From a bacterium (lineage in GTDB: Bacteria > Myxococcota_A > UBA9160 > UBA4427), in assembly GCA_024742285.1 (NCBI GenBank), contig JANSYR010000025.1, positions 1-55,087 of the forward strand: DNA of 55,087 nt, given 5' to 3'. Each line of letters starts with the position of its first letter. The first letter of the stretch is position 1. The notes under the pieces were generated by a model, which had not been told where the DNA came from, did not search any database, and saw only the letters and a list, made by a program, of their open reading frames with translations. Both the position numbers and the translations under genes were made by a program. Positions 2,744 through 6,166 of this stretch are shown here, piece by piece.

Positions 2744-3703
2744 TCAGTTCAGGGCTTCGCGTTGTCTCGGGGAGAGGAGGGGAGTGGGGTCCTGTTTTTT
2801 CCAGGCGGCGTGGTTGAGGCGGAGGCGTTCGGCGGGGGTGGCTTCGAGGGCGGCGAGGGCCGGGAAGCGCTTCAGGTGGAAGAGCTGGTCGCGGTCGCTC
2901 GCGTCGCGGGCGATGCCGGGTGCCCGCCGGGCGGTTCCGGGGTAGATCGCCTTCGCGATCGCGAGCTGCGCGTCGTCGTGGGCGAAGACGCCGTCGGCGC
3001 AGCCGTTCCGGAAGGCCTTTCGGAGGAGCTGCGCGTAGCTCACGCGGGTCGGGTCGAAGCGGACCTCGACGACTTCGCGGCCGCCGAGATGGCCGGCGCG
3101 ACTCGAGAGCAGGCCGTCGATCCCGCCGAGGCAGGCTTCGCCGACCCAATAGCAGGCCATCGAGAGGGTGGCGCGCTCGATGCGCGCGGGGGCGAGCTCG
3201 TCGCGCAAGGAAGCGACGTAGCGGGGAACGGCCCGCCCAGACGCTTCGAGCGCGTCGATCATGCGTGTCGCCACGGCTTCGTCGGTCCAGACGCGATCGC
3301 GGCGGGGAAGGAGGTCGTTTCCCCGAGCGTCGACGAAGCGCACGACCGGGTTGTTCCAGGCGGGCTCCCCGAAGCGGCGGAGCACCTCGCGATCGTGTCC
3401 GCCCACGTTGTTCAGGATCGCGAGCGGAACGAACTCGTCTTCGATCGCCTCGACGAGGCGCGGGTGCGAGAGCACTTCGCCGCCGAAGTTCACGCAGGTC
3501 GCACAGCCCGGGACCTCCTGGAAGAGGAGGAAGACAGGCTTGCCGGAGTCGGCGCTCGATCGGGCGGCTTCGTCGTAGTTTCGGAGCCAGGCGACCTCTC
3601 CGAGCTCTGCCGGCGTTGCGGACCGCTCGGCGTCGACGCGGGTCGCGACGAAGAGCAGTCCGGCGATCACGAGCGCGAATCCGATTCCGATGCGATCGAG
3701 CAA
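2744..3703 (-). CDS. Exported thioredoxin-fold protein (VPGC motif) fused to a shortened MsrA-like domain
   Basis: This 319-residue protein starts with a hydrophobic signal or anchor segment (about residues 5-22, possible cleavage after VDA), so it should act outside the cytoplasm. Residues about 35-155 form a thioredoxin-like domain with the redox motif V64-P-G-C-A-T-C70. The first Cys codon is TGT; in the related VPGUxT proteins, as I recall them, this position is selenocysteine. Residues about 178-235 resemble the start of peptide-methionine sulfoxide reductase A: ATLSMACYW (MsrA has GCFW), a GHLGG segment and EVVEVRFDP. The middle MsrA segment that carries further substrate residues is missing. 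The start is TTG at 3703, chosen because GGAGG lies seven bases upstream. A role in repair of oxidised exported proteins is plausible. Confidence 0.72.
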   Translation of the reverse strand: MLDRIGIGFALVIAGLLFVATRVDAERSATPAELGEVAWLRNYDEAARSSADSGKPVFLLFQEVPGCATCVNFGGEVLSHPRLVEAIEDEFVPLAILNNVGGHDREVLRRFGEPAWNNPVVRFVDARGNDLLPRRDRVWTDEAVATRMIDALEASGRAVPRYVASLRDELAPARIERATLSMACYWVGEACLGGIDGLLSSRAGHLGGREVVEVRFDPTRVSYAQLLRKAFRNGCADGVFAHDDAQLAIAKAIYPGTARRAPGIARDASDRDQLFHLKRFPALAALEATPAERLRLNHAAWKKQDPTPLLSPRQREALN

Positions 3704-3907
3704 AGCGTGTCCTCCAGGGCGGCAGGCAGGTCACCCCCTACTACGCCATCACCCCGAATCGGTTTCGCTCTCTTCGAAAGAGGAGTTGTACGAAGAACGA
3801 AGGGCCCGCAGCGCCCCACCCCTGGCACAACGAAGCGCGGCACCACACCGCGTCCAGGTTTTCACCCGACCCGCAGCGCTCCCCATCCGGCGCTCCGCCT
3901 CCCCGAC

Positions 3908-6166
3908 TCAGCCCCGCCCAGGCGGTAGAAAGTCGATGAAGATCGGGGAGCTCCACGCCTGCGGCTCGTGCTCGCCAAGGCACAGGTCCTCGGCGCCGCC
4001 GTCGCACAGATCCACGCTCGTGCATCGGCCCTCGGCGTCGCGCTCGCAGCGGAGATTGTCGCCGTTGACGGCCGGGGCGGGCGCCTCGTGGGCGCGGACG
4101 TAGTAGACCGTATCGCGGCCGAAACGGGCGTACTCGGGATCGGTGAAGGTGACCGCGCAGCCCGCCGGGTCGCCGTCGCACGCGAAGCTCCGCCAGGGGT
4201 CCTCGATCAGCGCGTCCACCGGCTCGTCGGGCGCGTTCTGCGGGCGGATCCGGATCACGTCGATCCGGGTGATCGGACGTCGCTCGGCGCCCGGGTTGTA
4301 GCACTCGCCCCGGCAGACGTTCTCGAGACGATCGGCGCCCAGGGCGTTCGCTGCGTAGTCGGGGCAGCCCGGGACCTGCTCGAAGGACCCGACCGCGCGC
4401 GCCTGGAAGATCGGGCTCTCGTTCATCGAGGTCTCGCCGCCCATCGGGACCGGCCGGCCGCGCGAGTTGGGCGCGTTCAGCAGATCGAACCAGAGCAGCA
4501 TGCGCGGACCGCTCGTGCCGTAGACCTCGCGGCGCTGGAACGCCTCCCAGATCGCATCGCGGTCGCGTCCCTTCGCGTGAGTCGCGACGAGGCCGCCGGT
4601 CTGGAAGAAGGAGGCCTGGCGCTCCATCTCCATGAGCGCGAAACCGACGAGGTCCGTGTTCTCGCGGTCGAACTCGCGGGGCTCGGAGGAGGGCGCTTCT
4701 GCCGGCGGCGCGAGGACCGAGGCCATGACGCCCTCCGCGTTGGCGAGGGCGTTGCGCGATTCGGTGAAGCCGACACGAAGGGACTCCTTGTAGCCCGTGC
4801 CGGGACGAGCGAAGTGATTGTCGCTCGAGGCCATGAATCCGAAGCGGAAGCGCCGCGGGTCGTTCGGGTCGTCGTCGAAGTTGCCGAGGGCCGTGATGTA
4901 CTGGGCCGAGCCCTTGTTGCGGTAGTTGAAGGCCGGCTGCGCACAGTCGGGGCACTGCCCGGCGTCGAGCCACTCTTCCGGCTCGGCGCCCTGGATCGCG
5001 AGGTGGCCCTGCGGGCCGGCCTCGGCGGACCACGCGCGTGCCTTCGCGGCGCGCTCGGCGCACGCGTCGGCGGCGCTGCCTTCGGCGAGGCAGCGCTCCT
5101 CGATGATCTCGCCGGCCCGCCAGCACGTCGGCGTGTAGCCGTTTCGCGGCTCCGGGCAGATCGCCGTACCGTCCTCGGCGAAGAGCATGTCGTCGAAGTC
5201 GCTCCACTCCTCGCTGTTGCCGTGGCCCGAGTAGACCTCGATCAGAATCTGGCGGTCCTCGTCGTGCATCGGCCCTTCGAGCTGCTTCGCCCAGTCCGAG
5301 CCCGGCGGCGTATAGAAGCCCCAGGTCGTCCCGTGCGGGATCACCATCGAGTCGAAGCCCCAGTCGTCCAGCTTCTCGAAGAGCAGGTCCGGTGTCTCGA
5401 CCATCTCGACGCAGTCTTCGGGCAGGCGGCGGACGGGCACGCCGAGGGGGCAGACCTCGAGCGGGTCGCGCTCCATGAAGAAGCTCGCGAGATCGTGGAG
5501 GCGTTCATCGCCCATGCCGTGGAGGAAGGCCCCGGCGACCGCGCCGCCGAAGGGGTTCGCGTCCGTCATCATGGCGCGTGTGCCGACCGAACCGATCGGC
5601 CGGGTGGGGATCTCGTCGTCGGCGAGTCCGCGGACCACGACGTTCTTGTGGCCGTAGTGGGTCTCGGGGGTCTGACCGACCTGGGTCCACTCCCAGCCGA
5701 GGAAGGCGACGGTGTCCGGGTTGGCGGGATCGCCGGCGACGTCGTTGCAGGCGCGGATCGTGTCGATCGTCTCCCCCCAGTGGGTCGGCGAGATGCTCTC
5801 GGCGTGGTCGTTGATCGACCAGAAGTCGAGGGCCGAGCAGAAGCGCGCGAAGTCACAGGCGTCCGCCGGCGGGTGGGCCCCTTCACCGCCCTGGAGCGGC
5901 AGGCTCATCATGAACGCGTCGAAGGAGAAGGTCGTGTGGACGTGGAGATCGCCGAAGAGGATCTGTTTCGGGCGAGAGACGAGCATCTCGTCGGCGGCGG
6001 ACACGACGGCGGCAGTGGTCGCCGCGACGGCGTCGGCGGGGCGAGCCTGATCCGTCACCTGACCGGGGACTTCGTGCTCGCCCAGGCCGCCTTCGCCGAC
6101 GTAGTCGAACCAGAAGAAGAGCACTGCGAGCAGGGCGACGACGACGAGGACGAGAATGCGCGACAT
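3908..6166 (-). CDS. DUF3604 family protein, PHP-like, membrane-anchored or exported
   Basis: This is a 752-residue protein with an N-terminal hydrophobic segment (residues about 4-20) followed by a DUF3604 body. The family is related to PHP-type metal-dependent phosphoesterases. The body opens with FGDLHVHTTFSFDA, whose H-x-H pattern is the first PHP metal site, and later shows SINDHAE and ASSDNHF, further His/Asp motifs typical of the fold. The sequence is rich in acidic residues and contains many cysteines in the last third, as expected for an extracytoplasmic protein. The ATG at 6166 has GGAGG nine bases upstream. The family's true reaction is not established. Members are common in marine and environmental bacteria next to oxidative catabolic genes. 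Confidence 0.85.
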   Translation of the reverse strand: MSRILVLVVVALLAVLFFWFDYVGEGGLGEHEVPGQVTDQARPADAVAATTAAVVSAADEMLVSRPKQILFGDLHVHTTFSFDAFMMSLPLQGGEGAHPPADACDFARFCSALDFWSINDHAESISPTHWGETIDTIRACNDVAGDPANPDTVAFLGWEWTQVGQTPETHYGHKNVVVRGLADDEIPTRPIGSVGTRAMMTDANPFGGAVAGAFLHGMGDERLHDLASFFMERDPLEVCPLGVPVRRLPEDCVEMVETPDLLFEKLDDWGFDSMVIPHGTTWGFYTPPGSDWAKQLEGPMHDEDRQILIEVYSGHGNSEEWSDFDDMLFAEDGTAICPEPRNGYTPTCWRAGEIIEERCLAEGSAADACAERAAKARAWSAEAGPQGHLAIQGAEPEEWLDAGQCPDCAQPAFNYRNKGSAQYITALGNFDDDPNDPRRFRFGFMASSDNHFARPGTGYKESLRVGFTESRNALANAEGVMASVLAPPAEAPSSEPREFDRENTDLVGFALMEMERQASFFQTGGLVATHAKGRDRDAIWEAFQRREVYGTSGPRMLLWFDLLNAPNSRGRPVPMGGETSMNESPIFQARAVGSFEQVPGCPDYAANALGADRLENVCRGECYNPGAERRPITRIDVIRIRPQNAPDEPVDALIEDPWRSFACDGDPAGCAVTFTDPEYARFGRDTVYYVRAHEAPAPAVNGDNLRCERDAEGRCTSVDLCDGGAEDLCLGEHEPQAWSSPIFIDFLPPGRG

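Follow-up and report, generated by a model that had tools for sequence, protein, structure and literature searches.

Methionine sulfoxide reductases of the MsrA type act through a nucleophile that attacks the sulfoxide and is left as a sulfenic acid, which then needs to be resolved. The roles of Cys51, Glu94, Tyr82 and Tyr134 in MsrA have been described (PMC6210582), and two variations of the resolving step are of particular relevance here. The MsrA of Clostridium oremlandii (CoMsrA) has no resolving cysteine and is recycled by glutaredoxin, not by thioredoxin; the title of a reference cited in the same work mentions the “tandem use of selenocysteine” (PMC4479559). In Neisseria PilB, an N-terminal thioredoxin domain recycles the MsrA/B of its own chain and is itself reduced by nDsbD (PMC6210582). 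A further point of reference is the NCBIfam family NF041383, named “VPGUxxT family thioredoxin-like (seleno)protein, type 2”, a selenoprotein “OS_HP5” to which no function is assigned in the entry. A review from 2026 likewise describes this family as “hypothetical protein OS_HP5” with the motif VPGU and one selenocysteine (Sec), and traces it back to work on a worm symbiont published in 2007 (PMC13188914).

The window, that is the whole stretch of 55,087 nucleotides analysed here, carries on its minus strand a gene of 319 codons (2744..3703, -) that was initially annotated as an exported fusion of a thioredoxin domain and a truncated MsrA-like domain. The gene starts with TTG, preceded by a ribosome-binding site GGAGG 7 nt upstream (3711..3715, -), and its base composition is coding-like, with a GC content of 0.74/0.49/0.86 at the first, second and third codon positions. 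Pfam Thioredoxin_7 matches residues 38-126 with 44.2 bits, and Pfam PMSR/MsrA (PF01625) matches in pieces with 25.8 bits against a gathering score of 23.7. The fusion is real as an open reading frame. Since PMSR was also matched by 57 of 60 relatives, the resemblance to MsrA is not due to chance. In contrast, the MsrA equivalog-domain model TIGR00401 gave 18.6 bits for this protein, well under its cut-off of 108. NF041383 covers the protein from end to end (344.1 bits against a cut-off of 275, profile positions 1-286 of 287), including its VPG[C/U] motif, found as VPGC at residues 64-67. The fusion is thus a member of a catalogued family and is not new as an entity. It is the Cys form of this family: Sec is optional in NF041383 and most of the members found here carry Cys. 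The related type 1 family (NF041382) has the VPG[CU] thioredoxin domain in common with the protein (140 bits over residues 12-159), but this score lies far under its cut-off of 350 and the MsrA-like half is unmatched; in 141 genomes of the window's phylum the type 1 profile was silent, as was its control. The gene next to the fusion gene (3908-6166, -) encodes a DUF3604 protein of 752 aa whose N-terminus carries a hydrophobic segment, and tblastn found no homologue of it beside the relatives of the fusion gene. Clustering of the neighbouring ORFs likewise yielded no recurrent partner gene, a weak test, because the ORF caller used is a simple one that selects antisense frames where the DNA is GC-rich.

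The first 26 residues form a hydrophobic segment (3626..3703, -), predicted by AlphaFold2 as a helix of residues 6-25 with low pLDDT, which may serve as an export signal or as a membrane anchor. In a simple scan, a hydrophobic N-terminus, a lipobox, or both were found in 104 of 112 relatives. Export of the protein, as initially proposed, therefore appears likely from the sequence, and the prevalence of such N-termini would place the reaction of most members outside the cytoplasm.

The thioredoxin domain comprises residues 36-159 (3227..3598, -), and its closest folds are 3f9u, DsbH and the C-terminal domain of DsbD. Its redox motif VPGCATC holds Cys67, the codon of which is TGT (3503..3505, -) as initially read, and Cys70, the second cysteine of CxTC (3494..3496, -). 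The suggestion that the VPGC position is Sec in related proteins is supported: among 112 relatives, 29 have TGA in place of the codon for Cys67. A sub-branch of the family (e.g., L050, L057, L058, L072 and L075) shows VPG[C/U]xGC together with NYQ/NFQ in place of xTC and NNP (positions 69 and 118-119). T69-N118 is among the strongest covarying pairs (z 8.2), and the sub-branch represents an active-site variant of the thioredoxin domain.

The MsrA-like half was examined in an AlphaFold2 model of the protein built with 60 relatives (pLDDT 93, pTM 0.85). Residues 173-319 superpose on CoMsrA (4u66) with a Z-score of 16.9 over 145 residues of the 204-residue MsrA (rmsd 2.5), and on other MsrAs with Z-scores of 12-13. 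The catalytic fold comprises residues 173-274 (2882..3187, -), and the C-terminal helical tail with a conserved LSPRQ motif, residues 275-319 (2747..2881, -), is aligned in the superposition to the CoMsrA helical domain. Modelling of a relative with two in-frame TGA codons (L102) led to the same fold (pLDDT 95.7, Z 16.1). According to these models, the MsrA-like half adopts a genuine MsrA fold of the seleno-MsrA type, including its special helical domain; the absence of such a fold around Cys184, named at the outset as the outcome that would refute the initial reading, was not seen. The initial statement that the middle of MsrA is lacking holds insofar as the two active-site loops L1 and L2 are missing, but the fold as such is not cut. 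We therefore rejected the term “truncated MsrA” in favour of a loop deletion.

The remaining motifs named initially were also found, with Cys184 in ACYW and with GHLGG and EVVEVRFDP at residues 204-218. Cys184 (codon TGC, 3152..3154, -) occupies the position of the MsrA nucleophile and is followed by the aromatic-Trp pair Tyr185-Trp186, kept as FW/YW in the family. Glu210 (3074..3076, -) corresponds to Glu94/Glu55, the general acid of MsrA, and is conserved in 111 of the 112 members. An inactive pseudo-MsrA was rejected on account of the (near) invariance of the nucleophile and the Glu and of the Sec found at position 184. The tyrosines that bind the sulfoxide (Tyr82/Tyr134 in E. coli, Tyr47/Tyr90 in CoMsrA) have no equivalents in the sequence alignments of the whole family: the L1 segment bearing Tyr82 is missing, and the column of Tyr134 is Ile in the window protein and variable elsewhere. 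Two of the three residues of the sulfoxide-binding part of MsrA are thus unconserved, and judged from the alignments the domain is an MsrA fold whose canonical sulfoxide-binding side has apparently been removed in part.

This combination bears on what the enzyme may act upon. It could act as a genuine periplasmic methionine-S-sulfoxide reductase in the repair of exported proteins, as a compact analogue of PilB. The MsrA fold with its nucleophile, FW/YW pair and general acid, the precedent of PilB and the predicted export are all in line with this, and the invariant Glu favours a sulfoxide as substrate. However, the Tyr82/Tyr134 equivalents were lost with the L1 and L2 loops throughout the family, and the missing tyrosines argue against ordinary methionine sulfoxide, so that we regard protein repair as a credible function that falls clearly short of being probable. 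Alternatively, the domain may now serve a different substrate, for example a small sulfoxide, peroxide, sulfenate or seleno-compound, with the loop loss either opening the pocket or allowing the thioredoxin domain to cap it anew. The family-wide loss of loops and tyrosines while nucleophile and Glu stay is what would be expected from such a shift, and the organism already has a separate canonical MsrA (G000:C3:54644-55102). On the other hand, there is no positive sign of any such substrate and no conserved neighbour gene that hints at a pathway; we give this reading the same guarded credence as protein repair.

A species-level genome collection yielded 515 matched stretches with coding sequences for relatives of the fusion protein, and the 80 kept of these include Saprospiraceae, Planctomycetota, Myxococcota, Ignavibacteriales, Dadabacteria and Verrucomicrobia. 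The distribution is patchy: the family occurs in 17 of the 379 genomes from the window's phylum and in 38 of the 392 from the phylum to which G379, a Phycisphaerae bacterium, belongs. In a set of 112 distinct members, the sole sites that always hold Cys or Sec are 67 and 184 (112/112). In 11 members from the window's phylum and Dadabacteria (L008, L009, L012-L018, L060 and L079), these are the only two cysteines within residues 33-314, and the second Cys of the CxxC motif is replaced by Val or Ala. Cys70 is accordingly present in 101 of 112 members. Cys235 (2999..3001, -) depends on it, occurring in 86 of the 101 members with Cys70 and in none of the 11 without, as seen in the family alignment; by mutual information, C70-C235 ranks seventh among the inter-domain pairs, which is suggestive only, given 112 sequences. 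Cys191 (3131..3133, -) is restricted to the Myxococcota/Binatota clade in which the window itself falls, plus a single further member, as judged from alignment and tree.

The two invariant positions are also those at which Sec occurs. The states at 67/184 are C/C in 83, U/C in 13, U/U in 16 and C/U in none of the 112 members, an association with a Fisher value of 7e-12 that is uncorrected for kinship. The U/U state stands for 16 different genes of Planctomycetota type with two in-frame TGA codons, located exactly at positions 67 and 184 (L069 at 6109 and 6457; L096 at 6109 and 6460; L102, L104, L105, L113, L116, L118-L121, L126-L129 and L131). The second UGA is followed by a conserved, SECIS-like hairpin, the apical AGUU or GGUU loop of which begins 19 nt after this codon. 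On 15 sequences, 92% of the cells of this hairpin pair and four of its seven pairs are changed on both sides, which is above nearly all shuffles, while slid registers fail. At both sites, the sequence behind a UGA gives lower folding z-scores than the sequence behind a Cys codon (p 5e-5 and 2e-6, from mononucleotide shuffles and uncorrected for kinship). The first 10 UGA-form genomes tested, two of them with the double-UGA form, all gave matches to tRNA-Sec, as did 13 of another 14 with the double-UGA form, giving 15 of 16 double-UGA genomes in total; the genome without a tRNA-Sec match is G565. These relatives are, from their sequences, apparent double selenoproteins with Sec at both active residues.

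It could be objected that the second UGA is a real stop or a sequencing error and the reading as double selenoproteins false, as the genomes concerned are almost all uncultured or unnamed and G565 is without a tRNA-Sec match. Against this, the UGA lies in 16 different sequences each time exactly at the catalytic position, the frame beyond it is open and conserved, the hairpin covaries and tRNA-Sec accompanies all genomes but one, which makes a stop or error highly improbable. In the best tree, the double-UGA sequences form a main clade, with L069 and L096 apart from it. Sec184 requires about four changes on this topology; the supported branches, however, force only one origin, and the nesting of Sec184 inside Sec67 is therefore not independent statistical evidence. 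Two single-UGA sequences (L111 and L114) lie within or beside the main double-UGA clade, which suggests an exchange of Sec and Cys at position 184. The host of the window has SelB (above cut-off; G000:C1:774923-776035) and tRNA-Sec (C13:63482-63576), yet the fusion gene carries Cys at both sites.

The pattern at position 184 also weighs on a simpler reading, according to which the protein is a plain thiol-disulfide reductase or isomerase whose MsrA-like domain only docks clients, with Cys184 as a structural or accessory thiol. The likeness of the thioredoxin domain to DsbD-gamma and DsbH would fit, and NCBIfam names only the thioredoxin part. However, Cys184 is universal, stands at the position of the MsrA nucleophile and is accompanied by the conserved Glu210, and the 16 relatives with Sec184 point the same way, because the use of Sec is expensive and characteristic of residues in redox catalysis. 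We consider such a function unlikely.

Instead, we propose that the protein is probably an exported, self-contained oxidoreductase in which Cys/Sec184 attacks the substrate and Cys/Sec67 reduces residue 184 in cis, a proposal drawn from sequence patterns, the models and the analogy to known enzymes. Cys184, or Sec in some members, would be activated by Glu210 as in MsrA, packed against Tyr/Phe185-Trp186, and would attack a substrate with oxidised sulfur, for which a sulfoxide is the most likely candidate. The resulting sulfenic (or selenenic) residue 184 would be resolved by Cys67/Sec67 of the fused thioredoxin domain, a step for which we infer both the 67-184 bridge and its direction. The disulfide may then be passed to Cys70 and outward via Cys235 where present, and the enzyme recharged by a presumed external reductant, a membrane reductase of the DsbD/CcdA type; the host has two DsbD_TM genes. 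The unconserved sulfoxide-binding tyrosines and the separate canonical MsrA of the host weigh against this proposal. The apparent Sec at exactly the two cysteines in some planctomycete relatives suggests that the two domains act as one self-reducing enzyme. The initial idea that a cysteine of the thioredoxin domain serves Cys184 gains indirect support from the universality of positions 67 and 184, the 11 members with only these cysteines and the paired use of UGA. In a more tentative form, to which we give somewhat less than an even chance, the family would have built a two-chalcogen centre from a thioredoxin domain and a loop-deleted MsrA, with both residues being Sec in some Planctomycetota, a possible Se-Se or Se-S bridge between the domains, and a substrate other than protein methionine sulfoxide. 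A single chain would then show the tandem use of selenium that C. oremlandii distributes over separate proteins.

Compared with the catalogued NF041383, of which the window gene is a Cys form, the entry names the thioredoxin part only and mentions neither the MsrA fold nor a second Sec. The apparent double-Sec branch, the MsrA fold type and the two-Cys minimal members are the new content, with an earlier description of the second Sec being possible. The analysis offers a testable function for a family that is widespread but has so far been entered under no other names than “thioredoxin-like” or “hypothetical protein OS_HP5”, and the two-Cys members would provide a minimal system for trapping the 67-184 step. 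With CoMsrA, a 1-Cys type, the family shares the Sec/Cys nucleophile and the essential Glu. However, CoMsrA stands alone as a protein, depends on glutaredoxin for its recycling in trans and still has Tyr47, Gln89 and Tyr90, whereas in the window family the loops are gone and the thioredoxin domain is fused in cis. With PilB (Trx-MsrA-MsrB), it shares an architecture in which a thioredoxin-like domain and MsrA are joined in one periplasmic chain; PilB differs in having canonical MsrA and MsrB with their oxyanion tyrosines, whereas the MsrA of the window family is loop-deleted and no MsrB domain was detected in the window protein. By analogy, the family would combine a CoMsrA-type domain without a universal resolving Cys with a PilB-like fused thioredoxin domain and, if both chalcogens react together, represent a covalent one-chain version of the seleno-MsrA/seleno-glutaredoxin pair.
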